Assembly (NCBI RefSeq): GCF_032854445.1
Contig: NW_027017978.1
Coordinates: 110,087-174,086, forward strand
Length of the DNA stretch: 64,000 bases
From: Liolophura sinensis
Taxonomy: Eukaryota; Mollusca; Polyplacophora; Chitonida; Chitonidae
Direction of reading: 5' to 3'
In this document: piece by piece, positions 10,430-64,000 of the stretch
How positions within the stretch are numbered: position 1 is the stretch's first letter
Layout: every line of letters starts with the position of its first letter
The notes under the pieces: generated by a model
Seen by the model: the letters and a program-made list of their open reading frames with translations, nothing else
Told to the model about the DNA's origin: nothing
The model's database searches: none
Made by a program: the position numbers and the translations under genes

Positions 10430-16334
<5,905 letters not shown>

Positions 16335-34623: not shown

Positions 34624-37600
34624 CTACTTTGCCACAGACACTGGTACTCTGTGCCACGCATTGTTCAACAGTCCTCTCAGATTCCAAATGCCTTCTACGC
34701 TGTCTGGTTGGACATTGTAAGAGGAGTCCACGGCCTTAGAAATTAGCTCCACCTTGCCCCTATGGTTCTCGGGTAATGGTACGACTGCCTCCCACAGTGT
34801 CCAGGCCCACGCCCGGTAAGGATTCTGATCTGAGCCATCTAGAAGCTCCGCTGTTCTCCAGGTTTTGCCACCATCTGCTGACACGTCCACACGTATTATT
34901 CCACGACCGCCTCCACTAAAAGCGTAACCTTTCACCACAACTTCATCGCTGTCTTCGTCCAAAACGGTGCCTGGTTCAGGTTCACATATAGTGGAGACAA
35001 CAGGTAGATCTTGTACGGCTGCAGATTTACTGAAATCAACGGTGTCCCAATCAACTGATGGATTAAAGCCTTTGTAGTCCTTCTGTTGCCAGTGACTGTC
35101 GCTTTCGTTTTTGCTCACAAGAATCCTCCCGAGCCACTTGACCTGGCGTGCCCCTACAACCCCCGGGATAATCACACGTAATGGATAGCCGTGGTCCTCC
35201 GGTATCTCCTCTCCGTTCATCTCGTAAGCAATGATAATATCGTTTTTCCTGCCCTGTGCCAGAGCTATTGGGATAGAGGCACCATAAGCTGATCCCTCTG
35301 GGTCTTTATCACAGCCTTCAAACTGAATATGACTGTAGTCACCCTTGTCGATGTCAATGCCCGCATGTTTTAGGAGGTCTGACAGCCTCACACCCGACCA
35401 GACAGCTGTACTGATGGCAGTAGATTGCCAACTAAGTCCACGAACATTCTTCTTCTCGGACATCTCAATTCTACGATTCCCAGCACACTGAATGGTTACA
35501 GCAACCTCGTGCTTTGGAAATTTGGATTTCAATTCCTTTAGAGAATAGGACATTTCTTTTCTACCGCCTTCTGTTCCCAGCTTGAGCTTGTAATTCTTAA
35601 TATCAATTTTGGGTACTGGGAGGTGGTTTCTCACGAAGAACAGCTCATTAGGTGTTATGAAGTTATCCACCAGAAGAGGTCCAGGTGGTTCCGCATTGAA
35701 CGGTTTCACCGAATTTGGCCGCAGTGCTGGATGTCTCACTGGATCATTGCGGAAAGGATCCTTCATATCAACAGGTTTTGAGGTTTCCACAATATTTCCA
35801 ATGCGGAATTTCTCTAACAAAGCATACATTGCTGGGTTTTCATGCGCAGCATACATTTTCCAGAATGGCTCTATGGAACCCCCTGCCCCCAACAAGATCT
35901 TTGACCCACCTGGATGTTTTGGGACATAGTCCGTAATATCATACACACCATTCTTGTATGTTACCCATATTTTTTTCTCCATGGAGTTGTGTCGAGCCAC
36001 TTCATCCTGAGAGAATGTGGGCAAATCCTTCCTCGCCACCCCAGGTTTCTCGGGAGAGGCTGCAGCATGTGGGGCAGACTTCTCTAATTTCCAGTACAAG
36101 AGGGCACCTATCAAACACAAACCCATCAATGGTTAGTATGGCAATAGCGCAACTGTGTCAATTGTTATGAAAGAATAATACACCACTCCGTGGCTTAAGT
36201 CAGAGGTTAGTACAGTATATACTTAAATAGAATAATAATTACACTATAAACAGTTTTTATTATCAAAAATATAAATCGAAGACAAAAGCAATGGGGACAT
36301 CTATCGCCCAAGGAAAAATGGAATGGTGAACATATTACATCTGCTGTCACTCAGTGCTATCGTAGAGGAAGAACACATACAATTGAAACGATAGCACAAA
36401 GGTGCCAGTGGTTATAAGACACTATAAAAAGGATTAAATTGCACTATATTGCACATCTGTTCCTAAGGTCAAATAAAATTACACCACTGTTTCGATCTCT
36501 TCATAAGTGTGGGCCGCACGGTTGTATATTTGTCCCTCCTTCCCCCAAATGGATTTACCCTGGGTCATATACTCAGGTTGGTGGCTTATATATCACAACA
36601 ACTACATAAACACTCAGACTGATGGGTCAGGACTATTTCCCCATGAACATCCACATTCAAATAGGTTGGTTACACAGATCATTTTCCTATTGATGCCATC
36701 ACAGATTGGCCCATTACCAACAATTTTCCCATGAACACCCACAGTCAAAAGGATTGGTTACAGACAGATCATTTCCCTATTGATGGCACCACAGATTGGC
36801 CCATTACCAACAATTTTCTCATGAATACCCACATTCAAATGGGTTTGTTACAGAAGATCATTTTCATATTGATGCCATCACAGATTGGCCCATTACCAAT
36901 AATTTCCCCATGAACACCCACATTCAAATAGGTTGGTTACAGACAAATCATTTTCCTATTGAAGCCATCACAGAGTGGCCCATTACCAACAATTTTCCAA
37001 TGAACACCAACATTCAAATGGGTTGGTTACAAACAGATTATTTTCCTTTTGAAGCCATCACAGATTGGCCCATTACGAACAATTTTCCCATGAATACCCA
37101 CATTCAAAGAGGTTGGTTACAGACAGATCATTTCCCTATTGATGCCATCACAGATTGGCCCATTACCAACAATTTTCCCATGAATACCCACATTCAAATG
37201 GGTTGGTTACAGACAGATCATTTCCCTATTGATGCCATCACAGATTGGCCCATTACCAACAATTTTCCCATGAATACCCACATTCAAATGGGTTGGTTAC
37301 AGACAGATCATTTCCCTATTGATTCCATCACAGATTGGCCCATTACCAACAATTTCCACATGGACTGCATCACAGATTGGCCCATTACTAACAATTTTCC
37401 AATGAACACCTCCATACAAATAGGTTGGTTACAGACAGATCATTATCACATTGACATATTCACAAATTGGCCCATTACTAGCAATGTTAAAACGAACACT
37501 TACACTCAAATGGGTGGGTTACACACAGATCATTTGCCCATTGACGCCATCACAGAATGGTTCATTACTAACAATTTTCCCATGAAACACTTACATTCAA

Positions 37601-40600
37601 ATGGGTTGGTTACAGACAGATCATTTTCCCATTGATATCTTTGCAGATTGACCCATTACTAGCAATTTTCCAATCAACACTTACATTCAAATGGATGGGT
37701 AACAGACAGATCATTATGCCATTGACATCTTCACATATTGGCCCATTACTAACAATTTTCCCATGAACACTTACATTCGAAAGGATGGGTTACAGACAGA
37801 TCATTTTCCCACTGACACCATCCCAGTCTGGTTCATTACTAGCAATTTTCCAATGAACACATACATTCAAATGGGTGGGTTACAAACAAATCATTTTTAC
37901 ACTGACACCATCGCAGGTTGGTCCATTACTAGTAATTTTCCCTTGAACGCTTACATTCAAATGGTTGAGTTACAGACAGATCATTTCCTCACTGACGCCA
38001 TCGCAGATTGGTCCATTACTAGCAATTTTCCCTTGAACACTTACATTCAAATGAGTGAGTTACAGACAGATCATTTCCCCACAGACACCATCACAGATTG
38101 GCGCATTACTAACAATTTTTCAATGAACACTTACATTCAGATCATGGGGTGGGTTACAGACAGATCATTTTCCAATTGACATCTTCACAGATTAGCCCAT
38201 TACTAACAATTTTCCAATGAACACTTATATTCAAATGGGTGGGTTACAGACAGATCATTGACATCTTCACAGATACGCCCATTACTAACAATTTTCCCAT
38301 CAACACTTACATTCAAATGGGTGGGTTACAGACAGATCATTTTCCCATTGACAACTTCACAGATTAGCCCATTACTATCAATTTTCCAATGAACACTTGT
38401 ATTCAAATGGGTGGGTTACAGACAGATCGCTGATATCTTCACAGATTGGCCCATTACTAACAATTTTCCCATGAACACTTACATTCCAATAGGTTCTTTA
38501 AAGACAGATCATTTCCCCGTTGATATCTTCACAGATTGGTCCATTACTAGCAATTTTCTGATCAACACTTACATTTGAATGGGAGGGTTACAGACAGATC
38601 ATTTTTCAATTGATATCTTCACAGATTGGCCCATTACTAACAATTTTCCCATGAACACTTACATTCAAATGGGTGAGTTACAGACAAATCATTTCCCCAT
38701 TAACACTTACATTCATTTATCTGCAAGTGACCCTCTCGCACTTAATTTCCTTTCCTCTACCTACAAAACTGACTGCCTTGATGAGAATAAACAATTCTAA
38801 TGTATTGTGTAAAACCACCATCAAATGTAGACAAAATAAGACTTAGCACATGTACTGTGCACAGCTGTAGGCTGCAGGCCTATATGGCATCACTGTTATG
38901 AATTTCTATCATGAAGTGAGCTTGGCAATAAATGAGTAGTGTATAATACATTATCAGCTTTATAACACCACAAGTGGGTGGTACTCATCATTTATCTAAC
39001 ACTTGTAGGGTGAGGTTTAAGATAAGATTTACAGGTCCAGGAGTGTGGAGGGTAGGAGATATACATGTAGGCTATCTATGGACCTGGTAGGTTGTATTGG
39101 GGTTACAGAAGTGTTGACAGTATGTGTCCTACATCTTCAGCTCTGCAGTCAACTTCATGTAGGCCACTTTCTTGCTGGGCCACTCAGCATAACCTTGATG
39201 TGACATTGTTAAAGACATAATGCGCCTGTCCAGACAAAATACAATTGTCTCATGTACATGTATGTAATCAATGAAAACCCATGACAACTTAGGTCAGATT
39301 AAAAATCTAACGATGTTATTAAGTTGTTTTCATTTTACAATTTGGAATTTAAACAATAGTACATTTAAAGTATATATGTCAGTTTCAAATATAGTTTGGT
39401 CAGGACACAATGATGTCTCCTTTTAGCAGGCTGAACCGAGTGCCCAAATATTTAGTGTTACCTTAACTTGGCACAGCTTACACATATATTTATTTTATTT
39501 ATTTTTTTTTATTTTACACCATACTTGGAATATTTCACTTACCTGACAGTGGCCAGCATTATGGTGGGAGGAAACTGGACAGAGCCCAGAGGAAATCCTG
39601 AACAATCTGCAGGTGGCTGGCAGGCCACTTACATGTATGTACTTTATCAAATAGCTCAAGATGCATGTACAGCCATACCCAATGAAGATAAATGGAATAG
39701 TATGTATATACCATTTATTTCATTCGTGTTTAACTTTTTACTTTTTTTTAAGTATTTTTTTTTTTGCTTAAATCACAGTGGTCAGGTTTATGGGTGGTGG
39801 TACCTGTACTGGGAGTGAACTAAAACCCTTGGCCAGGTATCTCACAAATAAACCCTTGGCCAGGTATCTCACAAATAAACCCTTGACCAGGTATCTCACA
39901 AATAAACCCTTGGCCAGGTATCTCACAAATCTCCTGACATAAAACCGCAGCCGAAACAGCAAGAGCTGAAATCAGACATGCATTCTCAATGGTCAGCAAG
40001 CCAGGGGTATGACCGTCTCACCCAGAGCAAGTTTTTCACTCTAGCACAGCAACTTTCATGGACACATTTCTACTTAAGCAGACTTCATCTCAGCCTAATT
40101 ATTCCTAATTCACCGATGAATTTGAACACATGAGGACAAAGTCTAGTAATTAGATAAACTGCATCAACTTCTTCCCCCAATACCCAAACCACCACTCCAA
40201 TCACATTACCTCTGTTGTCTTCAAACTGAGCTGAGGCTTATAGGTATTAAGACAGTTGAAATCTACACTGACGATCAGTATGAGTAACAATAGCACAGTA
40301 GTCCAATCCACTCTGATCTAGTCCCAGACAGCTGGTCCCGGATCAGCCTTAGGTCAATCCAGTAACCTGTACATGACATCTCACCTATATATGATTACCT
40401 GTTTATTTCATTCACCTGGCCCAAAGTACAAAATGCACCATGAATATGTTATACTGTAAAAACTAAAATAAGCCAACCATTCTGTGCTTTCTATAAAGGT
40501 AAATGGCACTTCTTTCAATTTTGTTTTGCTTTCGAAAATTGTTGTCTTCTGCTATTGTAAAAGTTAGTGGAACATTTTTTTGTGAAAATGATTTTTCAAG

Positions 40601-44852: not shown

Positions 44853-47800
44853 ATGGCTGCGGACACAGGACACAGGTTGTTGATCCGTTGCCCTGTAGTG
44901 GCTTTCTTTGTTGTTGTGCTCTCTTTGAGCACCTTGAGAATCTCTCACGCCATCAGATACGGACAAAAACCTGCAACACTTCATTTTGGGGAAGATTTTG
45001 GGAATGTCGACTTGACTCGAAGCCCTTTTCTAATTGATGTCACCGACTTCGCAGATCGCACTTTGGTTGAGGAAGTGGAAGGCTTAGGAAGTCATGCCAG
45101 AGACGCCCCATTTGGGAACAGAGTGAAGCGACAAGCAGATGGGACTCCGGCAGCGCAATCAGGGATAAATGTCACCAAGGTGGGAAGTAACACCTTACGC
45201 CCTTATATACGCACACAAACCTATTATGTCCAAATGAATTAGTTTACATCGATAGGCACCGCGAATTCCATCACAGATGTTGATCTGTGACTGATGAAGG
45301 AAATAGATATGTTTTACTTATAGATGCTGCAGTGTATGCCTGGAGGAGAAGCATGGACAAGTGGCACAAAATATATATAGCTAGAATTATACTCACGTTT
45401 CGTTTATCCCAGGCTATCTAATCTAATTTGGAGATAGCAGATCACTGAGTCTACATCTAAGCTCGAGTGAAAATTATGAAGTATCAGTGTGTTCACAGAT
45501 CCCTGCAGGAATTCTGTAAGACTAATCGAAAGCTAGAGACCATGTGATCTCCTTCGTTACAAATGGCGTGTGTGAAGAAAACGGTCCTAACAACGTTATT
45601 GCATTGGAAAATGCCTATTTTTGAATAGTTTGCAGCGACCTTGTATCCATTGGATTTGTATAATTTTCAGCTTTCCAGATAGTATGAGTATTTCTGCAGA
45701 GCTTTCGTGATGCTGTGTTGTACAACCAGGCCTTACTGGTCGCTAGCGAAGTGGCAAAATGTTGACCTTTTCCCCAGTGCTTTAACATTGGGTGGCCATT
45801 TTGTTTTCGGCACGAACGGGTCATCAAGTTACCCCCAACTTCCGACCTGTCTTACAGAATATGAGAATCTGTAACTCACCCCAGTTGAATAAATGAATAA
45901 GGTCATTTGGTATGTAAGACAAGTCTGAATACATGATAAACTGTTTGCATTAGATTATGATGTGCATGTAGAAACCAAAACATAGAGAGAAAACAAGGAC
46001 AGATGTTTGGGAGCAACTGTGAGGAATGTCCATCACCTTTTACATGCATTAAAACTTCCCTGTACACATATCAAACTACGTGAGTCATTTTTCTTAATGA
46101 ACAGCTATAAGGCTATAAACCATACTAAAACTTCATCTGTCAGTCGCATGTGACTGGCAGTTGTGCTGTTCATCACTGAAACCAAGAGGGCAGGACTGTG
46201 TCAAACAGATGTGAGACATGCAATAAGTTTAGTATTGGTACCATCTTTCGTTGATCATGAAAAACATACCTGTTTCAGCAGTTAAATTGAAGTCGAATAA
46301 ATAAGTAAAATACCTGTAACAATGCACAGTTATCTGTATGTGGATCTTCACCACAAACATCTGTTTATCCTCAGCATGTATGGCCTGTATACATATGTGA
46401 TTCCAAATTTTAAATATCCCCATGGATAATGTATCTAAATAATATGGGTGCATATTAATTATAAAAGAAACAAACAGGCTGTCAGCTTTTGTTATCATGG
46501 GTATTTAATTGTCCATCTCTTATCAAGACTTGTATGTAGTACACAGAGTAAAAGCTCCATATGAAAAGAATGGATGAATTAATGTTCCATCTGTTACCAG
46601 GGCAAAAAAGTAAAAATATCTTTTGGCAAGGAGGGTGTTGAATAATGTTCAATCTCAAACCACACCTTTAATAAATATAACCAAACAGTGTAGAAACATA
46701 AAACAAGGATCCAGCTTTTGCTAGTTCAGCCACAACTTTAAGTCAAGGGGCTTGTCAGGTACATGGCAAGATAACACCATTGTGTCCTCCACCCTGCTAA
46801 ACCTGACTGGTGTCATCCTTGTATAGAGTAAAAATTCTTGTTTATTGTGTTACACACAAATCAAATAAATACATGTTAAATCTGGAAAGAAATATAAATG
46901 TGTAAATTAATAATAGTCAGTCTAAAGATTATGGAAAACAGAACATGAAAATTATGTATTTTTTAATATAAGTACCTGTGTCTGTAGGTTTACACTGCAT
47001 TGAACATTAATAAGTGAATATAATATGTTCACAACCTGGGACGGTAGGCATAACTCCTGTAAATGATCAAAATAACCCTGGCTTGTGCACAGGATGGAAA
47101 ATTCAATAGGTAAATCTTCTGAAAAAAATAAATCATTCTGTCAGTCCTGTTAAGTGTATAATATTGCAGTACATATCCATTCAGGGAGGAATTGTTGAAG
47201 ATTTGTAAGAGGCATCTTAGTGCATGTGTTGGGATCGCCTGGTTCCATTTCTGCTTTGTTGATCTGATGTGTAGGCCTACTGTGTACACGTATACATGTA
47301 TACTTACATGTCTAGTATAACATGAAATGCTTGTAGAACTGCATGACGAGAACATTTGTATGGTGTGCACACAGCCAGTGTTATGTTGAAGGTGAAAGGC
47401 AAAGGTTTTTGATCTGAAACTTAAAGTTATAAGATTACATCAACAAGCTAATAAAATTACAGCAGATGCTTGTTAAAAGGAAATAATGGTTTTTGTGATC
47501 TGAAAACATTGCAGTTCGCCTTTAATGTTTCTTACATTGTCTATCTTCTGCACGTATTGCCAGACCTGCATGTGAACATATGCGGGTCAAAATTTAATAT
47601 GATAAACTGATATATGTAGACTTGCAATAATCATACATGTGATACAATAAAATATATACATGTACATGAAAAAGCATAAAAAATACCTTGAGTAGAGCTC
47701 AGCTGTTGCAGGGCTATAAATATGATATTACTGCATGCATTTCACAGGAGTTACCCAGTGTGTTTATGTCCAGTGACTTGGTAGGCCTGTGGATATTTGA

Positions 47801-50800
47801 CCTGTTCGCTAATTGTGGAGGATTTCTGACAGGTGTACAAGGAAGTTTTACAATTAATACATATGTGCATACATGCATATGTACACATGTATGAATGTGC
47901 AGGATCTCTGGTATGAATATATCTTACAAGCATTATATTGATTTTCTCTGGTGGCTATGGTTACTTTGATAAGCCTGGGTGACTAATGCCATGTTGTGAC
48001 TGTACACACATAGATGTGAACACAAATACTTGTCATGTACTACATAGGCAATGTAAATATACTTACTTAGGTTAGTTTTGCAACACTTTTCTTTTTTGAG
48101 AGGGGATGGGGGACTGAGGCCCGCAAATAATAGCAGTAAATTTTCATATGTTGGAACGTAAAATTATACTCCTGCAACTTAAAACTTGGATTGTAGTGTT
48201 TCGGTAAGTACAAAGTTTATAATTACTTCTACAAGTGTACATGTATGTAGGGGCTCAAAAATAGTAATCAAAATATAGACCATGTATATACCTGTACGTA
48301 CTGTGTGTTAACTGCGTGTAGGCCTTCTCTAGACCATGCATCTACTTGTATAAATGATCTTATGTAAGTACCAGGTGTAGGACATGTGCATAAATAGGAC
48401 AGAGGTGTGTATTTCAATAGAGGTTTCATGAAAACAGTTGTGGCTGGAGGGGAGGTAGATTTTGTCAACAATGAAGATCACTCATCTGTAGCCGCTCTAT
48501 GTGCGGGGCTTTAAATGTATGTAGACTACGTATGAGTGTGTAAGTAGGATTTTTGAGAGGTGGAAAAAAGGTGAAATAAAAAAAAAATGACTGAGCCTTA
48601 CTCACTTTCCTACATCTTTGTACTCCAAATACAGTTTCTATTGTGTTGTTTTAAAGGTTTTAAAGGAGTCCCAGGTAATGGTACACAGAGAGAGAAATCA
48701 CAAAGAAAGTGATACTAATTTTTAGAGGATTTAATAGGACTGCAGCCACAGAACTATTTCCATTGAAGTCTAAACGTCATCATTTAACAAATATTAAAAT
48801 AACTAGTACAGCTTTCCAGGAAACAGGTGAAAAAATTATCCCAGACATTTTTTTGTCAATATTGTGCGCCTAACTTCACCATTACAAATTAAAGACCAAG
48901 ATTGAGTTTAAGGCCATGTGGTGCATGTTTGATTTCTTCAATTGTAGACTTTCAGAATGGTTTGTCTTACTGAGTTAAACATTTGTTATGTTGGAGTCAC
49001 CATGACAAGCTAGAGTTTTTTTTTGATATCTGAAGAAATTGTGCTGTTTTGTTTCTAGTTCCAACTGAATGACAGCCACACCCAGCTGATAGTGCACTGG
49101 GCTGGGGAAGGCAGTAATGTAATCCTAGCCCTCGCCAGGTATAACAGTGATGGGGGAACCAGCAGTCTGTTTGTCTCTCAGGACTATGGTCACACGTTTC
49201 AAAATATGCAAACGGAGCTTGGGAATGTGTCCTTCCATCGCTACTATAACAGTCCCATATACAACAGCCATGTAAGTACAAGTATGACACTACATACATG
49301 TGAAACATGATTATAGTTTTCATATTGTTTCAACTGTGTTCACACAGTACGATGGTTGAATTTGACTAGTCAAATGGAAATAGCACCTGAACTACTTTAT
49401 GTAATTGTAGCACTCAACAGATCACATAATCTGAACTCATCATATGAAATAGACATGTCATAGTTTCATGTATCACATCAGTTTCAAATCATCCTTTCAA
49501 CAAAGCTTATTTGTTTCTGCTATTTAAGTGATGATATTTGAAACCTTTCATGAAGGTCTATGATAATGTACAAGCGTTTGACAAAAATTCTGTACTGTCC
49601 CTCTGCAGTAATTTTTTTCATTCTTATTGTTTCAGTATGTCTTCACGGATATCCAAGCTAACCGCATTTATACATCAAGAAATTTTGGACTTAAATTCTT
49701 ATCTTACCAACTCAGTTTTAAACCAAGGACGGTGGCTTTACATTCAACAAACCCAAACATTATCCTGGCTATGGACGACATGAGTTCTGAAAAAAAGGTA
49801 GGGTTATGTCTCTTAGCTTGGGCCTTGGGACTAGAGTGGTGGATTTTGTGCTATTTGATTTGATAATTTGCTTATTTTTATTAGATTGTAAAAGATTCAC
49901 ATTTCAATTATGTTGAGGGACATCGTGGCATTATTAAAATAGGCAGATGCTGTGTTAATTTTAAGGACCTTTTCCTCACTAACAGTCTTTATTGTCTTTT
50001 CAGTTGAATTTGTCTCATTATTTCAGTTATATATCTCTCATGATTTCAGTCGTGTATAACTCATGATTTCAGTTGTGTATCTCATGATTTTAGTTGTTTA
50101 TCATGATTTTAGTTGTGTATCTCTCATGATTTTAGTTGTATATATCTCAGTAATTAGTTGTATATCTCTCTTAATTTCAGTTGTATATATCTCATGATTT
50201 TGGTGCAAACTGGAGAGTTATGCAGTCTTCTGTAAAATCGTTTTTCTGGTAAGTACAAAGTACATGATTTTCCCTTGTCTAAGAAAATTGCTGTGTAAAA
50301 CAAAGTTGCTGCTCCATTATTATATCTCGTATATAAACTCAGTTTTTTTTTGGCATGAATGGATATGCACTCATTTTTTTGTAGTAAACAATCACGCACA
50401 GGTGGAACCGTTGACAGTTCAGTGTTGCTGTTGGTGGATGAGACGGATAGCTAGAATAAATGTTGGTAGACTGAATATGACTTGACATGTGTTAATGAAT
50501 ATATAAGCAGAACAATTATCTACATTCAGCACTCACAGGTATTACCAGGTGTTTAGAGACGTTTTGTTTTCCATTTCCCTGTGGCAAACCTTTGTGTGGT
50601 TATAAACCATTTAGTTAAAAAGACAAACCAAAAAACTTGCCATTTGTGACAAAATTTGTTTGGGGCCTCTGTGACAAAAGACGGCCAAGATCGGGTGATC
50701 TTCTGGCTTGAACACTGAAACAAAAGCAGTGACTGACTTACACAGTGGCTCCATTGTTTGGCAAGAGTCTTTCGTTTCATGAAATCGCCATTTTAGTGAC

Positions 50801-53800
50801 TAAAGTCAGATGAATTTTTCTAAATATTAAATTCACCTTAATACATGTACGACACACATGCATAGGCTTGTAAAACTATGTATTTCACTAATATATTAGA
50901 GATATTAATGTGGTCCTATATGAAGCTGTTAAGATGTTATCCATTACATATAGTGCAGTGACAAACTATATAAGTTAACACATAGTTTACTTCGTATTAT
51001 CAGTTATGTTCACATTATCCAATTTAGTAAGTGTCTTGAACAGGTTTTAAAGGTACCCAGTAAGTTATCTTACGTTAGCCTGAAAGAATGATGCAAATTT
51101 CTAGGTTTATATAGCCTTCTGACACTTTTTATCAGCAGAGCTTGATGTGTTGAGGGACTTAAGGAAAATGATATTTCTCAACATGGCAATTTCTCTAAAC
51201 AAATACCACTAGCCAAAAAAAAAAAAAAAATATCCCCACAATGTACTATGTACCGCTTTAAATAAATTATGAAACATGAAACAACTTATGTAGAAGCTTT
51301 ATTAGTTATTTTCTGAATATTGCAAATAACAAATTTACTTGAAAAAATGAATCTAGTAGCTCTTAAAATTTAATCCGCTATGCTGAAAATGGAAACATGT
51401 TTGTCTTTACTTGTTTTAAATAGTTGGGACAAAGGGCATTATGCTCAAAGTGCTGGTGTTGTTGAAAAGTGTCAGAACCGAGAAAAAATAATACGGTGGT
51501 AAGATGATGGCCTTACCTGGCTTCCATAGAAGGGGGTAACAGTACCAGTGTTCTAGTGCTTATACTAGCAGTAGCAAACGAGGAATACCCAGTAGCTCTG
51601 ATGATAGTGAGCTGGACTAAGGACGTAGAGATCCTATTTCAAATCCCGATGGGTGAAGCAGCCAATTTTTATATGGAATCTGCGTAATTAATAGGTCACT
51701 TGAAGACCTGGTATATGTCCCTTGAACAACCAGTACACATCACTTGAACACCTCGTACATGTCACTTGAACACCTGGTACATCACTTGAACACCCGGTAC
51801 ACGCCACTTGAACACCGGTGATCCGCTGGCAAACCGGTGGGTACGAAGGATGAATGACCAGTGGCAAACAATTGAGCTAGTGTGTAAATATAAATACAGG
51901 CCTAATTTGATCACGAATCACATATTTATATGATCTGCCTTTCTTATTTCAAGGGGTGTTGAACCGTGGGATGGGCCAAACACACTGTATATAGAGCGAG
52001 AAGAGTGGACCAACAACAACATCGTTCTGAAAAGCACAAATTTCTTCCAAACCAGTAGAGTTCTTATCCGAGGAGTTGTCGACTTTGAGGTCCGCGACAA
52101 CTATATGTTTGCCACAAAGAGAGTGGTAAGTACATGTAGTACATGTCAGTTGCTTGCAGCTTTAAATAAACAAGATTGCTCATTGCCATTGCCATTGCTC
52201 ACACATGCAACAGTTACTTGTATTTCTTTCTCTAATGGAATATCCAAATGACTAGAAATTTGAAAGGTAATGGTCAGAAATTTGAATGACCTTGAGGACC
52301 TTAGTTTTCTATATACATAGTAGTTAGTGTTCAGCTAGCAGTTCATTTTTGACTGATCAATTTAACATTATACTAGTTTTATCACCTGTGTCCTTGTAGC
52401 ACCTGTTTGGCTCCAGAGGTATCTCCTTACAGTTGTGGGTGTCCAGAAACAGGAGAATGTTCCAGAGGGCTGTCTTCCCAGGAGCCTTACAAGAACTGGT
52501 GAGCGACAGCCTAATGCAACACAGACCTGTGTTCATTGAATCTACCCGAATAAAAGTGCAACTTCAGTGCAGTTTATTTTCATTTTGGAGACAGAACTAT
52601 TGGATTTGGTTCTCCAATTTCAGCTCATAACAAAAATTTTACTTTTGTTAATCTACACAGAATAATGCCTTCAAAATATACTTGAAAAAAATATCTTGCA
52701 AACATGCCAAAGCACCATTCATGTACATAAATTTTAAATAGATGTAATGTGATCATAGCGTATGTTCATGTTCAGTAGGTACATAATATGACTGTTGTCG
52801 TGTTCTGTATGGTTTCAGGACTACTATGTAGCCGATGCATCAGAGGACCAAGTGTTTGTGTGTGTCAATCATAACCACACTTCCTCCCATTTGTACATCT
52901 CAGACCAGGAAGGACTCCGCTACTCTCTGTCACTCACAGACGTCATATACTTCAACCCCAATGGCTCCAATAATGACACTTGGCTGCGGTAAGGACATGT
53001 CCAGTTACATGTATATGTAACCCAGTGCTCTTTGTTAATTTATTTGCCCAACTGTCTTAGTTAATTTGTTTACATCCATTTTTGTGCTGAGCGTAATGAA
53101 ACCTAAACTGTGGAAAAATATTGTTTTTATTGTGTCATTCCTTGGTTGCGAGGGTGGGGATAGGGGTAGGGGTGTGTTGGCAAGCTTATGAAGATTATGA
53201 GAGCCTATCATATTATCGTGAATCTGGGGTCATCAGACTCTGTGGACAGAAGATACTACAACAATTCATGTTATCACTGGCTAACTCAGGATTTGGGCTG
53301 GGCCTTGTGGATGTCTGTTCGAGACCGCAGACATCCACGCCTTTGCCAGATACTCTCTTGCTACTGACTCGTACAAGCCAAGTGCCCGGATGTCCATGGT
53401 CAGGAATAAGCTCTGAAATGTTGCAAAATTAACCTGTTATTTCTTTTCCACAAAACTCAATGGTACATGTATTGTAGATATATGTATAAGTGTGGTGAGT
53501 TATTGCTGAACAGTCTGTACACACCTGTATGACGGGTTAATCACTCAAGTGAAGTAATAATCCTTGTTCTTTTCCCTGAACGTAGATTGTATAAGGATGA
53601 GTCTTTTGCTGACATTCACAAAGTGGACGGCCTGCGAGGTGTATATATCGCTTCTCAGCTGAGGAACCATTCGTTGAGCCTTGAGAACCAGGTCAGCTAC
53701 ATTACCTTTGACAAAGGTGGTTTGTGGCAGCCTCTATTGGCCCCGCAGAAGGACTCGGAGGGAAACCCAACTAACTGTGATCAGGTTCGTGCCATGCAAA

Positions 53801-56800
53801 TGTCAGATATCCTCTGTTTGACCATAGTACATATCTAGTCCATTATTATCTACACAGCTTTTGGCAAACCCCAGCCAATTTGTAAAGGTACTCACACTAA
53901 CATGTTACTCTTTATAAATTTTTAGGGTTGGTGTCGGCCTTTTTGAGGTGGGTTGGGTGGATGTAATACATTTTTATACTTTCGGGTGACCATGAAACCT
54001 TTCATGAATGTTTCAAAAGTTTTACGGTTGTTATTGTTTGCATCACAGTAGCTTTATATCACCCTATACCTTACAGCCATCGCATTCACGTGGTTTGCCA
54101 GTGGCCACCATTCCATATCTGCATATCAGTCATGTGCAAGTGTACAAGATTTAATGCCAGGCAACCATAGAAGAATGATTTCTGATTCATTGCGTATATA
54201 CTATTTGAAATGATCTGTTAAGTTGGGAGGAGCTGTTCCCCCTTTATTATGCACAGCATTGCTTTGTATGGTCAACCTGTCCAGTCTCACACGGGAACAG
54301 TATCATCATTTGCCACTACATTAAATGACAGTTACCGGAGTTTTTGTCCAGAACTTCCTGAAAACCAAATGGTAGTAACTGTCATTATGAACTATGACCA
54401 CAGAGTATCAGTCTAATGGTTGTGTTCCAAATGTGTGCCTATAGATGAGAATGTGAATGGCATCTTTTAACTGTCAAATTGCTCATTGTAAATTTTAAAT
54501 GTCCTGGAAGGGCTTCCTGATGCATTAAATACTTGTATCTGTGCAATTCGCATTATTAGTCGTCAGCTGTTTGTAGCTGATCATCATGTTTCTCTCGCTT
54601 GTTTTTATGAATGTTTAAAGTGTAGGTTTCTTGGTATTTCCAGTTACTGTGATTCGTCCACCGTTCCTCATGTTCTCATTGTGTTTAATCAGAAATTATG
54701 TTAGTGTACCAGTATTACGTATACCCTGTATACAATGCTGCAAAACCTCATGCGATCTTATTACCATATACAAATGATTCATGCTCAAAGATGAGTTGTT
54801 CACAAGTGTACTAGGGAAGGTAACTTAAGGCTAGTTTTAAGATTCATGCACATACCAGAATTCTTCTAATTTATCAAACCTTCTAATGATTAGGACACTC
54901 TCAAATACCCCCACCAAAAATGATTGTTAAAAAGGATTAAGTATCCCTTCATTTCAAACCTGTAAGGATAGCCGCTGAGGGAATGATGTTAAGGTTGTCC
55001 AAAGAATTAGAATTGTTACGGTAATGATATATGGAGTACGATTGGGAGGTTGAACGCACATTGTCTGCAGCATTTGTGTCAGTGGGTGGGGGTTCTGACA
55101 CCATACTGTATTATCCATTGGTGAAGTGTGATCATTCCCATTTTCCTCATTGCCCACCTCTCATTCCAGCCCCTTGGGTATAAGAAGTATAAGCATGGGT
55201 TATTGAAGGTAAACCCTCATCACAGCCGCATGTTCATTCTCGCTTGTGATTGTTATGTCCCAGGCTGATTCCTTGTGCGTTCCATTCATTTGTGTTTCAT
55301 TCCTTCTGTGTATATGTGTCTTTCTGGTTGGATTTGTAATGATGTGTACCTGTAGCCATCTCTTAATTGTAACATCACCCTTCATACTGACAGCCGCGGC
55401 CCTATCAGGATGAAGAAATGTTCATATGATTCAGAATGGTAGTATGTATTACCACTATTAAGAAAAACCTTATTGTTTCCTGATTAAAGCATTGCTCAGA
55501 ATTTTTGCCCTACAAATGGATTGAATTTTATTTTTAACAAGAAAGCAGTTGTGTGGAAGTATTCTGATGTGGTAGGCGGGGAGATTTTACCAATAGACAT
55601 TGTTCCCATTCTGTACGTGTTAATGTATGTCTACTGTGCCTGTTTGAGCAACATTTAGCTCTGCAGCCAGTTTGATGGATTGTCAGTCCCTACTAACTGT
55701 TCGTCATTTGTGCATATGTGTAGTTGAGTTTCACATTCCAGTTTGAATTGAGTGATGTTATTGTTCTGATGTGAAATTCAAATATGTGTTGTTTGTTTTA
55801 TTGTGCTCATTTCCTTGACAATATTATAAACCAGAATGTCAGCTGCTTTTGCATGTGGATTTAAGGACATGTACATCTGCTGTTTCAGTAGACCTTCTGT
55901 CATTGTAACTGAATGCTACATGCACATGTATATGTTGGCAGCTGATAGAATACTTGTGTTTCAGCTTTCATTACATCCCGACATGTTTTCTGCCTCTGCT
56001 ATTCTCCATGTTACATATTTAGAGTAAATTTGTAGATACTGTTTTACTAGTTTGTAAGTTTACAGTCAACGCAAGTTCTCATTGGAAAAGGTTGTAACTG
56101 TTATGAAGTATTTGCATAATGTTCATGTGGATTTCCTGATAAACATTTCTTTCTAGATGTTTATAGTGGCTAGCTGTCTGCAGATGAACTGATCATTCTT
56201 TTCTTTTCTTGTAATTGAAGTGTTTCCATACATGTTTAGCGGTATGTACCATATTTGAATGATGATGTAAAGTAGGTTTCTATTTAGAGGGGTTCAACAC
56301 CTATGCTGAACACCGTAGGCTGTTTTCCCTTGAGTAGAAGGTTTGGTAATATCTGTTCTGTATTTCCTGACAGGCAAATATTCATCATGTTCATAAGCTT
56401 AATTGCATCCAGCTATCTGCTCTCTGTGTCTGCATTCACCACAAATAAATCTGTAACTATAGATTGGAAGGCATATTGTTAATAACGACTGTGTTTACAT
56501 AACACAGATATTAAATGTTACATATATATGTGGAATCTTTGTTATTATCAGTCCAAACAATGCAGCCTTCACCTAAGTCAGGAGTTCAGTAAGCTTTACC
56601 CAGGCAGTAAGACGGTACCCATCCTGTCTAAGAAATCCGCCCCAGGACTCATCCTGGCCTCTGGTACCATGGGGAAGAATTTGAAGCGGCGACCTAATGT
56701 TTACTTGTCAAGGGATGCAGGGCTTCGCTGGAGGGAGGTGAGTACACCCTGCCCCACATATGTCTCTATACCATGACATTATGATGCTCATCATAGCCTG

Positions 56801-59800
56801 TCACAGGTCACCTGTGGATTGCTCTATTTTTATGGAAGTGGTTCTGTTCTTAAACACTACACGGACAGTACGAGTTCACTTATGATATGGACCTAAATTT
56901 TGACTTTGCCCAAGTGTCACATTCTGTTTTGAGAGTGCTGCTGTTGTTTAGAAGGAAGGATAATATCCTGCTGGAAAAGTGTGAGATTCAACACCAAAAT
57001 TAATATTTGTAACATTTATTTGCCTTAAAAAATGCATGTTTTTGGGCAGAATTTTAGATTATTTACTGAACATGAAAGACCAGTGCATTATATCTGCAGA
57101 TTTCACACAGATTGTCGACTTTTATAAATTTTATCAGTGATTGAGGATATGGTGGACATGTAAATCCATTACAGCAGAAGTTCTCTGTTGTGCCAACTGG
57201 CAGTGTATGTTCAAAATATGTATTACTGTTTATTATATGTGCTGATTTCAGATCCAAAAAGGAAACTACTTCTATGCCTTTGGTGATTTTGGGGGAGTGA
57301 TTGTTGCTGTATCACAGTTTAGTTTAACAAACGAAATTTTGTGAGTATCACAATATGTGTGTGTGCACAATGTTGTCATATGTAATCCATGAGAAAGCTG
57401 CTCTCTCTGTTTATCTGCCAATAGGGGAAAGTCGTATTATTAGATTATATCATACTTGGTTAGACTGTTTATGATAATTGGAACAGTGTGTAGAATTCAT
57501 TGCTGCTGTAGACATGTGCACTAAACATAGTACAAGCTGTGTGTCTGGTTTAGTGGCACCAGCAGAAAAGACATGCACAACATGGTTGTTCCAAATGGAC
57601 ATGGTGCATTTGGAGGTTGTATTGTGTACACAGTTTATTTACTTTTTTACATGGACAGATGTACATGTTTGGCATTTCTGTGTGTTCCACATCATGAGAA
57701 TACATCATGCAGTTAAAAAATCTTCAATTCTTACATGTCCAAGAGGGAAATGTGTCCAGCTAAGGTACATGAATTTTGAGACAGAGTGAGCAATGTGTTA
57801 GTGTGAGCCAGCAGTTAAATGGCTGTGTTGAACTCTTGTTTGAGTTGAACATGATCACCACATGTACATGGAGTTGTCAAAGCATGGGCATGTTGAACTT
57901 TTCTAGGATTAACAAACTTGTGTTAACGGGTGGATTTTAGGAGATTTTAGAGCAGTTTTGACTCTTACTTTTGTTATTATATTGTTTTAAAATAATGTTT
58001 ACATGTCAAAGGGCAGCATTTTGTGAATTACCCACCTCTGGTACTTTGTTGTTGTCTGCAGGATTTCAGTTTCTTTCTGAAGACATTCTTTCTATCTTTA
58101 TCTCTAGGTACTCCAAGGACATCGGTGAGACATGGCATACATACCAGTTTGCCCCACATAAGATCCGTGTGTATGGCCTGTTGACAGAACCAGGGGAGAA
58201 GACAACAGTTTTCTCAATATTTGGTTCACATACTGGTGCTCACAACTGGTTGATTCTACAGGTGAATGTATCCAGTATATTTGGTGAGTGCTTTACTGCA
58301 CGCTCGAAGTTACAGAAATTACATGAATGAAGGAATGATTATGGCTTAACATTGATTGATTGTTTTGTATTATTCTGTTATATTCCCACACCTGTCATAT
58401 ATTGCAGCATCATATGGGGTAGCACACGTTTCACATCTTCCTTCCCGTCATATCCTTCAGAAACATGCAGTTAGAATTATTACCCCATCCTGTCCACCAG
58501 AACATATAGCGCCCATATTTAAAAATTTCAAACTACTAACGTTGTTCAAGATAAATATTCACCACGTCCTGCTTTCAGTGCGTAAGCACTCGCATCATTC
58601 ATTTTTACTGCCAATTCATTTACGAAACTTCTTTGTCATGCTATGTGATGATACAATACTAGAAATTGCAGTACAAATCTTTATTATCCTTTCTACTCAT
58701 TTATCTTTTTATTATGCCAGAATTAAAGGTCCCCGTGTGTGGAATATTGTTCCTCCTACAATCAAAACTAGAAAATCTAATTCTTTGTTTAAGAGCAAAA
58801 TTAAAGATTTTCTAATTCAGTAAAAAATATATACCATTAATTTGTAAGTGGTATGTTAATATTTGTATTATTGTGCAACTTTACAACATTTTGTTATTTT
58901 TCATGTGGCCATTAAACCCCATATTTAACTAGCGACAGCATGTGGGTGCGTTTAGTTTCACCTTGTTATTTCTATATACTAGAAATGTCAATTGTGATGT
59001 CAATTTTCTGTACTGATCATTTCAATAAATAATTTTAAAAATCTATTAATCAGTGGGATTAAGAAAGCCTGTATGGGTTTTATTCCCGCCAACTATTTGA
59101 TTACATCTTATGTTATACATTGAATTTGTACATATATTTAAATATACAGAAGGCATTTAAATCATATTAGGTATATATTTTGGTGAAATTAATGAAATGA
59201 AAAAAACGAAAAGTCTTCAACTTTTTTGGAAACTTGCTGTACAATAGTCTGTAACACAGTTTCTTGAAGTAAAATGAGGATAATTTTATTACCAGACATC
59301 CAGGTTAATGTTCCCACAGGGTGATTTTCTATTGTATGAAGTTGTAATTGGTTTGGCATCGCTGTTTCAGCTACAAAGTGTAACCCAGATGATGATTACA
59401 AGGAGTGGTCACTGTCAGACGACCAACACTTCAGTGGCTGTTTGCTGGGCAGAAAGACTGTGTTTAAGCGCCGCACGCCTCATGCCAACTGCTACAGTGG
59501 CCCTGACTTTCAGCAGGTGACAGAAACGAGAAATTGTTCTTGCACCAGGCAAGACTATGAGTGGTGAGCAACTTGTTTCTTACATGTTTATAATGATGAA
59601 AACACATGTTCATATGCAATTAATGACTCCCATGTGCTTTGCACTAGCAGGAGTTAGTTCTTTGAAAAAGAGTGGTACTTTAATCTGGTCGTCCTTGTTT
59701 ACCTTTAAAGGTGTTTAGCTTTCTTCTTCATAACCAAATTCAATCTGTCCTAATTACATTTATGACAATTGCATTTTTCCATTTGGTTGTTATCTCTAAT

Positions 59801-62332
59801 CTTTGTTATGCACAGTGACCTTGGTTTTATGGAGGAGAGCCCATTGTACACGAGTACTGGTTGTGTGCCTGACCCAGATGCAAACCTGACGACTATCCAT
59901 GAACAACCAGCTAACTGCCCGCCAGGCACCTTCTACCGATATACTAAAGGGTGAGTCAAGGGAGATAACTGTAAGGGAACAAGCTGATTACTGGAGGGCT
60001 AACACTTTTCCTGCAATGACGAGACTGGGCTGTGCTACAGAGCTCTACCCGAGGGGTCGCTGTTTCAAGCTGGACAAAGTCAGCAGGGAGAAGAAGGCCA
60101 AAGACAGGCTTACTTGTACTGGTCTGTGATAACATGACAGGCAAAGATAAGCAACAACTCCTTGCTGTTGGAAATTAAAGTATCCCTGGTGTTTTCACTG
60201 TTTGAGAAAGCTGCCCATACAGCATGACAGCAACAAAAACGCATGAAGGCCGTCTTTTTAACACACTGGTTCATTGAGATGGACAAGAAGATCATTTGGC
60301 AATAAAAATAGAAACTAATGCAGCGAGTTTTAGGTGGTCAGTTGACACTGAAGATGACAGTGAACCCATATGTGACAACAAGTGAGATATACCCTCTCCA
60401 CCAACCTCAGTTGAAGCCCTGAAACCCGTTTCCTACATTTGACGGTGCCTTGACTTTAAGGACTTTGATGAGGTGGAAAAATATGCTTTAGCAGGATTCT
60501 TGTATGATTCAGACTTTTTTCATCACATGTGAAATTACAATTCGGGACAATGCTACACAGTGTTCAACATTCAAATACATATATTGTTAAGCTATGTTGA
60601 TTAGGTGCAGAAAGAGTTGCATGTAGCATGAATGCAAAATGAAACACCAACGTTAGGATTGTAATGGTGTTGTTCACTTCTCCAGTTCTGTTGTGTCGAC
60701 CAAGTGACACAACTCCATACATATATTAGTAAATTTGAATACATCTTTGAATTGCATATTTTCTTGTATTTACAATATGCAATAGTGTCCTATTGTATCT
60801 GACAGACATTTACTTCTTGATATGTCAAGCATGGTTTATAAATATCATACAAATCACACAACAGGCTGATAGTAAGTGTTTTCAAGTTAACTAAACAAAA
60901 CTTTTCCTTTTTTTTTGAAAAGTGTTTAGATTCAGACATGTTTCGAAGGTTTGTGCAATCATGGTACTGTTTATATTAAATTTGGTGACTTTTTCTTAAG
61001 TTATTATTTCTTCACCGGCGTTTTCTTGGATAAGCATAATGATTGTTTGAACTTGTTTCTCATCTCTGTATATACTATTCAGGAAAATGTTAGCTCATGA
61101 TCATGATGACCCTGTTTCCTTTATCTTGTCAGGTATCGTCGGGTAGCTGGGGATACATGCCATGGAGGACAGGAGTACCGATATGAGGCCCTAATGTACT
61201 CCTGTCCGGTTGAAGGTAATCTGTTAACTCCATTGTCTTAGGTTAATAACATACACATGTGTCTCCTGGGCTTTCAGACGTGTTTTCATTCTTTGTGTTT
61301 TTGTGTTAAGCATGTGTTTTAAGCATGATTTTGACTGGTCTTCAAGCATAATTATTTATTTATGGCTTTGGTAATTTAGCAAAATAAACTGAAATGAATG
61401 CCCCCTTCAGATTGTGCTGAAAGGATTTACATCAGATGGTATAGATGTTTTTCTGTCCTTATGCATGGTATGATTGCTATAGAAGTCAAACTGTTTGACA
61501 TTTAAATTTCGTATGATTGCTATAGAAGTCAAACTGTTTGACATTTAAATTTCGTATGATTGCTATAGAAGTCAAACTGTTTGACATTTAAATTTCGTAT
61601 GATTGCTATAGAAGTCAAACTGTTTGACATTTAAATTTTGTATGATTGCTATAGAAGTCAAACTGTTTGACATTTAAATTTCGTATGATTGCTATAGAAG
61701 TCAAACTGTTTGACTTTTAAATTTCGTATGATTGCTATAGAAGTCAAACTGTTTGACATTTAAATTTCGTATGATTGCTATAGAAGTCAAACTGTTTGAC
61801 ATTTAAATTTCGTATGATTGCTATAGAAGTCAAACTGTTTGACATTTAAATTTCGTATTTAAATTTGATATACAATTAAGGTTCATTTTGTGATGAGTTA
61901 CTTAAGATAATAAACAGGGGCTGATAAAATAAGATTTGGTTCCTTGGTAGCCAATCAGGAAAGGCCAGATATCTGAGCATCTTGTTCTTATTCAGCATAC
62001 ACAAAAGCAAAGGACATGAAAGAGTCTGATGCTTGACAATCTAGGTAATTTGTTCTGAAATGTCTGGTTGCATTTTTGCTCTTGTTGTGGTTTTCAGAAA
62101 AGTCAGAGTTCCTGCTGTACAGTAATCGTCACCAGATCCACCGTGTGGAACTTGGTGGTGAGATGAGAGACACTGTGCTGGTGGAGCGTTTCCTGCAGAA
62201 TGCCGTGGCGTTGGACTTTGACTATAAGGAAAAACTGTCTCTTCTGGGCAGACATCTCTATGGACGTTATCAAAGTGAGATGATGGCTATCATCGTTAAT
62301 GATGACAAAAGATAATTTGCTACACCTCAATG

Positions 62333-62372
<40 letters not shown>

Positions 62373-64000
62373 GATAGAATGGAATTTGCCTTTAGCTGGC
62401 TGGTTATTACTAAGGCATTGTATTGTTAAAAAGACATAGTGAGCGAAAAAATTTGGAGGAGAAAAAGGCATTGAGCTTTCATTGTACCTTTAAAATCAGT
62501 AAAACGTGTGTAAACAGACCACAGCCAGTATTGCAAAAAAAAATGTTGAATTTGACTAGATGTCGGTTTGTTGAGGGTTCCATGTGCAATGACGACAGTA
62601 GTCACTTCTAGGTACAGGTTGTACCGAAGAACCAGATGAAGTGAATTAAGTTTCATTTGTCTTTTATTGTGTAGGGGGACTACATATAAAAACCAAAGCG
62701 GTGTGAATGCAAGCAATTAAACATATTTGCACCTGCATAAAAGGCATTTCAGAGGCATTGTTTGTCAAATGAGGACTTTTTTTTCATACTCAGCATGGTA
62801 AAACTTCTTCCAACTAAGGATGTCACTGGCAGTAAATGGTCAAACATTGAACTTCTCAGAAATGTTCATGTTGGCATTTTCACTGTAGTAAAAAGCAAAC
62901 CAGATTATCCTGACCCTTATCATTTAACTCTTGATTCTTTTAAAACAGAGTCTATAGAATTGGAATAGCTTTTCAAAGCCACTCCTGAGCTTACAACTAG
63001 TGCTGTTATTGATTGGTTTTCTGTTCTGTGCTGTTCCAGCGCGTCTGCCTGAGGAATGAGACCCAGCTGACAACTATTGTACAAAACCATCTGGACACTG
63101 TTGAGGGCCTGGCCTATGATTGGATGGGAGGCAATCTGTACTGGGTGGATGCAGCACTGAAGAAGATTGAAGTGGCAAGGAAGGATGGCAGGTTCCGCCT
63201 AGTTCTCATAAATGGAACGCAATATTTGGATAAGCCACGGGCCATTGCCCTTGATCCTCAGAACGGGTAAGAGACATGTGGAAGCATGTATGTGGTTTAT
63301 ATGACCTTAGTGGTGAGAATGAATAAATTGATGATTTTTCTTAGGATTCACTTTGTTTCACAAGAAAGTTTATGATCAACATTACTATAACACTCCTACT
63401 TGAAATAATAGTGTTTTTTTTCTCGTCCTCTAGTTCTAAGTGTTGAGTACCATATCGCCAAAGATTAATGCCTCATCCGATTACCATCATTTATAAATGT
63501 CGCAGAGTTTACATGCTAAATTAACATTTTAAGCAGGAGACCATATTTTCCTCAAATGATCTGGATTTATACTTAAGGTTGCAGAGCATAGTTCAACACA
63601 AAGTTGTAAAATTTCATGTTTTCTTCAATTTATCTTTGTTGATAAAGGTTGCATCATGAAGTCATTACAAATCATCCTTATCAGGAAACCCAAGTACTTG
63701 TACACATATATACATGTACAAGGGAAATGACTGTGGAGGCCAGGAAGGTTTCATATATGGGTAGTAAGGATTTGGAAAATAAAGACTTTGTTCATTAGAA
63801 ATTATATGCAACCTGGGATTCTGACAGCCAGGCATGTATAGAGCTGATTTTCACAGTTAAACAACCTCTTAGTTTATGTAGTAGTATGGTGTATTTATTT
63901 TCTATCTAAATTATCCTTGTGGCTATCATTGTATTTTCTCTGATAGATACATGTACTGGACAGACTGGTCAACGACTAACCCTCGTATCATGAAAGCCTC
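44853..64000 (+). CDS. SORL1: Sortilin-related receptor SORL1/SorLA, N-terminal part
   Basis: Seventeen exons: 44853-45179, 49059-49271, 49636-49797, 50181-50248, 51954-52125, 52400-52498, 52819-52988, 53586-53784, 56552-56737, 57252-57340, 58108-58283, 59371-59563, 59816-59950, 61133-61215, 62098-62274, 63040-63266 and 63947 to the window end. They give about 910 residues of a protein of roughly 2,200. Exon 1 has a signal peptide (VVAFFVVVLSLSTL) and a propeptide ending in a furin site, RVKR. Exons 2-14 form the VPS10 domain and 10CC module, with Asp-box motifs (SQDYGHTF, SHDFGANW, TFDKGGLW, SRDAGLRW, SKDIGETW) and conserved YVADASEDQVFVCV and KTVFKRRTPHA. Exons 15-17 begin the LDLR class B propeller (NLYWVDAALKKIEVA, YMYWTDW). 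SorLA sorts cargo between Golgi, endosome and cell surface. An in-frame ATG at 44814 is an alternative start. Exon 15 carries one extra base, at the A run 62230-62234. Confidence 0.95.
45180..49058 (+). other. SORL1 intron 1
   Basis: A 3.9 kb intron between the leader/propeptide exon and the first VPS10 exon. It is AT-rich, with many TACATGTA-type words (for example 47285-47310 and 47860-47890) and no recognised repeat family or nested gene. Confidence 0.8.
50025..50200. repeat. Degenerate ~20-bp tandem repeat ahead of SORL1 exon 4
   Basis: About eight loose copies of TATATCTCATGATTTYAGTT-like sequence run up to the acceptor at 50180. The repeat contains TTTCAG and TTTTAG, so several decoy acceptor sites precede the real one (TTAATTTCAG). 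The exon itself starts with LYISHDFG, encoded partly by the same TATATATCTCATGATTTTGG word. Confidence 0.8.
51708..51830. repeat. ~22-bp tandem repeat, about five copies
   Basis: Loose copies of CACTTGAACACCTGGTACAT plus GT lie in the SORL1 intron before exon 5. Copies vary in length (20-24 bp). Confidence 0.75.
53785..56551 (+). other. SORL1 intron 8
   Basis: A 2.8 kb intron with a weak donor (GTTCGT). No repeat family or nested gene is recognised. The flanking exons join directly in homology to the vertebrate protein (NCDQ|SKQCSLHL), so no exon seems to be missing here. Confidence 0.75.
58334..58930 (+). mobile_element. 3' end of a non-LTR retrotransposon (CR1/L2-like) in a SORL1 intron
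   Basis: A 155-codon open frame (58356-58823) matches the C-terminal end of LINE reverse-transcriptase proteins: LYYSVIFPHLSYIAASYGVA, LQKHAVRIIT, APIFKNFKLL, then KGPRVWNIVPPTIK and SLFKSKIKDFLIQ before the stop. The catalytic part is absent, so this is a 5'-truncated copy, as usual for LINEs. A short 3' UTR ends near GCCATTAAACCCCATATTTA. Its open frame suggests a fairly young insertion. It sits in the intron after exon 11, same strand as SORL1. Confidence 0.85.
61468..61858. repeat. 43-bp minisatellite, nine near-identical copies
   Basis: Units start at 61471, 61514, 61557, 61600, 61643, 61686, 61729, 61772 and 61815: TGATTGCTATAGAAGTCAAA, CTGTTTGACATTTAAATTTC and GTA. Only two single-base variants are seen among all copies. 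Each unit contains the palindrome GTCAAACTGTTTGAC and an ATTTAAAT core. It lies in the SORL1 intron before exon 15. Confidence 0.96.
62337..62369. repeat. (TA)n microsatellite
   Basis: About 16 uninterrupted TA units, 60 bp past the SORL1 exon 15 donor. Confidence 0.95.

Follow-up and report, generated by a model that had tools for sequence, protein, structure and literature searches.

SORL1 (SorLA) is a receptor whose truncation has consequences in humans, and people with SORL1 truncating variants have been reported to carry a 17.2-fold Alzheimer's risk (PMC12667055, in part). Breaks of a reading frame can also come from the assembly of a genome. In long-read-only bacterial assemblies, errors of homopolymer length have been described as the commonest residual error (PMC8812927), and in the amphioxus assembly BraLan3 gene models with in-frame stops were traced to PacBio-introduced indels, the edits with transcript support comprising 3,672 insertions and 2,690 deletions (passages of PMC9673378). 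Here the 5' part of a SORL1 gene from Liolophura sinensis (Mollusca; Polyplacophora) is described, as found in a 64-kb stretch of contig NW_027017978.1 (assembly GCF_032854445.1), hereafter called the window. One base too many in exon 15 shifts the frame of this gene, and the surplus probably arose in the assembly rather than in the animal.

Identity and exon structure of the gene

The window contains, on its + strand, SORL1 exons 1-16 along with the beginning of exon 17, which is clipped by the window end (64000). Exon boundaries were taken from the splice sites under the guidance of human SorLA, and the GT-AG, open-frame and in-phase rules were themselves used in choosing them. Exon 1, which shows a signal-like start and an RVKR stretch as read from the sequence, was placed by eye; comparisons with relatives, for which PDB sequences only were used, began at exon 2. 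Exon 4 (50181-50248) was located by a scan requiring an open 3n+2 exon, and its supposed absence, considered as a sign of damage, was rejected once it had been located. All 16 introns of the model are GT-AG, none of the 17 exons has a stop in the frame used, and the reading passes in phase across 15 of the 16 junctions, the exception being that from exon 15 to exon 16, where the exon 16 frame was assigned manually.

When joined, exons 2-14 give an alignment to human SorLA (3wsy) that covers query residues 2-646 of 649 and scores 665.9 bits, as against 260 bits for SorCS2 and at most 206.2 bits for sortilin. In the same exons Pfam finds Sortilin-Vps10 (PF15902, 357.5 bits) and Sortilin_C (PF15901, 135.1 bits), and the VPS10p domain is followed by the 10CC (Sortilin_C). 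The YWTD (LDL-receptor class B) propeller comes straight after the 10CC, as indicated by PF00058, matched from the last part of exon 15 to exon 17, and by LRP matches; only its start falls within the window, and the later domains of a SorLA, namely EGF, LDLa, FN3, the transmembrane segment and the retromer-binding tail, would lie past the window end. SorLA being the best PDB match by a wide margin, the gene is, as judged from these comparisons, an ordinary invertebrate SORL1 orthologue, and the identity proposed for it in a first-pass annotation, made from the letters of the window, is borne out by the 3wsy match, the Pfam domains and the propeller start.

The change of frame in exon 15

Exon 15 is flanked by ...gttttcag and gtgaga and is 177 nt long. 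Since exon 14 leaves one codon base and exon 16 opens on a whole codon (RVCLRNE), its length should be 3n+2, as the first-pass annotation had already claimed. Read in the frame of exon 14, the exon gives (E)KSEFLLYSNRHQIHRVELGGEMRDTVLVERFLQNAVALDFDYKE, which starts KSEFLLYSN and runs to AVALDFDYKE, and then KLSLLGRHLYGRYQ. In the frame compatible with exon 16, propeller homology, NCLFWADISMDVIK, is read from 62233, so that about three quarters of the exon is read in one frame before the homology moves to another.

The last 14 codons of the exon were scored in each frame by ungapped BLOSUM62 against six LRP2/LRP4 propeller segments, hand-picked from the PDB alignments with the other displayed segments left unused. 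The three frames score 35 (that of NCLFWADISMDVIK), -5 and -16. A score of 35 was reached by none of 20,000 base shuffles (best 33) and by none of the 6,439 stop-free 14-codon intronic windows of the same gene (best 23). When exon 15 is read without a switch of frame, the PDB matches, in each of the 28 listed sequences, go no further than residues 41-46 of the 58. With the switch, the best stretch continues over the junction at residue 45 in every one of the 37 listed sequences, with E up to 1e-8, and in 35 of these the match spans from residue 2-5 to residue 143-151 of 152. The sequences so matched belong to LRP2, LRP4, LRP6, LRP8, LDLR, VLDLR, nidogen and one receptor kinase, residue-by-residue alignments being those of the top five sequences only. 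No chain of the SorLA propeller itself was among the PDB matches. The Ldl_recept_b score of exons 16-17 rises from 53.5 to 61.7 bits when the 14 residues of NCLFWADISMDVIK are added, and stands at 58.9 bits when the addition also takes in exon 14 and the earlier portion of exon 15. Exon 15 read straight to the stop in exon 16 matched no Pfam family, and its upstream piece alone gave no Pfam match over the cut-off.

From the frame scores, the shuffle and intron controls, and the PDB and Pfam results it follows that the frame shift is present in the printed sequence and is not a chance reading. The sequence does turn unrelated after VALDFDYKE, and the propeller does continue in another frame, both as previously annotated. 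No second frame break was seen across the visible coding sequence, and exons 2-14 align with human SorLA without one.

The position of the shift is bracketed by homology to about 62223-62244, the lower edge being the by-eye end of the unswitched PDB matches and the upper edge coming from the segment score, which covers the last 14 residues only. A run of five A (A5) lies inside this bracket, and homopolymer runs of at least five account for 37 of the 2,730 SORL1 coding bases, in seven runs. A shift placed just past the A run scores 36-41, as against 35 within it. The A5 run seems the likely site of the extra base. The first-pass annotation had set the shift at this run and was correct both in its coordinates and in the length of the exon, but homology alone does not pin the base to the run.

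Origin of the extra base

A residual one-base error in the assembly consensus is, in our judgement, the best explanation of the extra base, and quite a probable one, the choice between error and allele having been weighed by judgement. The leftover insertion would most likely take the form of an overcalled A in the run of five; the base would then be missing from the real genome, and the SORL1 gene would presumably work. An assembly error is the cheaper explanation of a lone break in an open 17-exon stretch, and it is favoured over a broken allele because the visible gene shows no further break of frame. According to the PDB matches and the segment scores, the shift has conserved protein on each side, in different frames, and such conserved flanks argue against a long decay of the gene. 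The neighbouring 502-codon sulfite-oxidase-like frame, which is open, also agrees with an error. Some points weigh on the other side: a run of five A is not long, and the crude score comes out a little higher at positions immediately past it; the 502-codon frame is the only other long frame checked and, being unbroken, gives no measure of the error rate of the assembly; and a young null allele would look identical in sequence. Error and broken allele were the two readings put forward in the earlier annotation, and the analysis supports this choice of candidates, with the error favoured.

Conservation also bears on the view that this SORL1 copy is a pseudogene in decay or a duplicate without function. 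One frame-breaking base is indeed present, as such a copy might have, but none of the 17 exons has a stop in its own frame, the splice sites are all kept, the introns are present, so that the copy is not a retrocopy, and within the window part of the gene the protein is conserved on either side of the break. A decaying copy is accordingly very improbable.

The extra base could instead be real and represent a recent null allele, either segregating or found in the sequenced animal alone; such an origin is possible though unlikely. Runs of A are also prone to slip during replication, and a lone simple indel without other decay is what would be expected from a young allele. The printed reading departs from the propeller once YKE has been read and, after a short stretch of stray residues, meets TGA in exon 16. 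With a stop well before the end of its exon and with further exons downstream, an mRNA is expected to undergo nonsense-mediated decay; here 207 nt of exon 16 follow the TGA, and decay of the mRNA would therefore be expected here. Any protein made from such an allele would keep the VPS10p domain and the 10CC and would have no propeller. The known risk from human truncation is a late-life effect and says little on invertebrates. In the sequenced amphioxus species a heterozygosity of 3.2-4.2%, with many variants per genome, has been reported, and the large amphioxus population size speaks for harmful alleles being rare (passages of PMC12862219).

A real base could also be tolerated if splicing kept the frame, through cryptic donors near 62201-62207 or 62285-62295 or through a different exon. 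A scan of acceptors at 62050-62139 and of donors, GT or GC, at 62200-62399 found ten open 3n+2 exons, formed by two acceptors (62098 and 62107) with five donors, namely two GT (GTGGCG and GTTAAT) and three GC. All ten, however, are without the block that LDL-receptor propellers conserve, the canonical donor GTGAGA is present at 62275, and the cryptic donors depart from the GTRAGT consensus. The phases are such that skipping exon 15 entirely also breaks the frame. No second exon 15 was found in the window, where a tblastn search with the exon 15 peptide returned exon 15 itself and, besides it, four matches whose E values were all 1.3 or more. A frame-restoring splice without the CLFWAD block thus exists on paper and would not be a convincing rescue; the likelihood that splicing accounts for the extra base is vanishingly small.

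A further possibility is that the base is real and that the cell corrects it, by +1 ribosomal frameshifting or by loss of one A of the run at the RNA level. Frame 0 is open through exon 15, and overlapping A-rich codons occur in the shift region. In antizyme, a nuclear +1 case in animals, slippage takes place at a stop codon; the shift site of exon 15, unlike the antizyme site, has none, and recoding needs a special process where plain error suffices. Compensatory +1 frameshifting has been described in mitochondrial genes of birds, turtles, an oyster, ants and glass sponges (review PMC5009743), but the compensatory cases in the passages of that review are all mitochondrial. A fixed real base, with full-length SorLA produced through +1 frameshifting or RNA correction, would be a nuclear counterpart of these compensated indels, and there is next to no chance of it. 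Beyond the open frame nothing speaks for recoding, which is very unlikely.

The two readings first weighed differ in what they would mean. If the assembly is in error, the importance of the break is limited to annotation, where SORL1 would come out split or truncated in an automatic gene model. If the allele is real, it would be a natural null, in an invertebrate, of a receptor whose truncation goes with human Alzheimer's (PMC12667055, in part), and this animal would be one in which the effect of the null could be followed.

Other features of the window and comparison with known systems

A 23-bp minisatellite of 9.1 copies, with 78% matches, lies across the intron 3/exon 4 junction. Its unit is made up of the last bases of intron 3, including the AG, and of the first 17 nt of exon 4, and the array ends in the true acceptor. 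Upstream of this acceptor, a check of TCAG and TTAG sites only found nine of them, each giving an exon that runs into a stop short of where exon 4 truly ends. Minisatellites called 'mirages' are known to duplicate intron-exon boundaries in amphioxus, where they were reported not to disturb normal splicing (passages of PMC3087553). The minisatellite at this junction may be worth more than the frame break.

A second array in the gene, in intron 14, consists of about nine copies of a 43-bp unit with 98% matches and ends 240 bp before exon 15. Outside SORL1, a large array of a roughly 90-bp unit is open in some frames, the longest of 283 codons, and the 502-codon frame mentioned above carries Cyt-b5, Oxidored_molyb and Mo-co_dimer domains. 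Five exon-like stretches, in which no frame break stands out by eye, match Pfam MORN at 23322-23726 only and presumably resemble RSPH1 exons. A group of coiled-coil-like and PH-domain exons, with Pfam PH on 15894-16331 and no Pfam family on 14873-15262, we take to be perhaps a PHLDB-type gene. Coordinates are collected in Table 1.

Table 1. Positions in the window of the SORL1 features discussed and of other features
Feature	Position	Strand	Basis or remark
SORL1 5' part	44853..64000	+	exon model with phases, 3wsy match, Pfam
SORL1 exon 14	61133..61215	+	2 codon bases supplied at entry, 1 codon base at end
SORL1 exon 15	62098..62274	+	177 nt, not 3n+2; YWTD propeller start; internal frame change
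14 conserved codons NCLFWADISMDVIK	62233..62274	+	frame fits exon 16, not exon 14; score 35
Run of five A	62230..62234	+	likeliest place of the extra base; inside the ~62223-62244 bracket
Cryptic donor GTGGCG	62205..62210	+	would restore frame by dropping the last 70 nt of exon 15
Cryptic donor GTTAAT	62295..62300	+	would bring exon 16 into frame, minus the CLFWAD block
SORL1 exon 16 (RVCLRNETQL...)	63040..63266	+	open; Ldl_recept_b by Pfam on exons 16-17
TGA of printed reading	63057..63059	+	exon 16, codon 823, 207 nt before exon 16 end
23-bp minisatellite	49998..50200		intron 3/exon 4 junction
43-bp array	61468..61858		SORL1 intron 14
Array of roughly 90-bp unit	36635..38705		
Sulfite-oxidase-like frame	34624..36132	-	open, 502 codons
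Five exon-like stretches	22353..24260	+	Pfam MORN in part
Coiled-coil-like and PH-domain exons	14873..16334	+	Pfam PH in part

Set beside the described systems, the break in exon 15 is like those of BraLan3 in being a small indel that breaks the model of a conserved gene; the transcript-supported indels there were edited before release, whereas the SORL1 indel is known from the assembly sequence alone (passages of PMC9673378). With the human SORL1 truncating variants it shares a frameshift that precedes the greater part of the receptor, although the animal is a different one and the change is again one seen in the assembly only (PMC12667055, in part). Like the amphioxus 'mirages', the minisatellite of the window duplicates an intron-exon boundary, here the intron 3/exon 4 junction of SORL1 (passages of PMC3087553). 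The gene itself agrees with SorLA in having the VPS10p domain, the 10CC and the YWTD propeller in the same order, and differs from it by the one extra base in exon 15.
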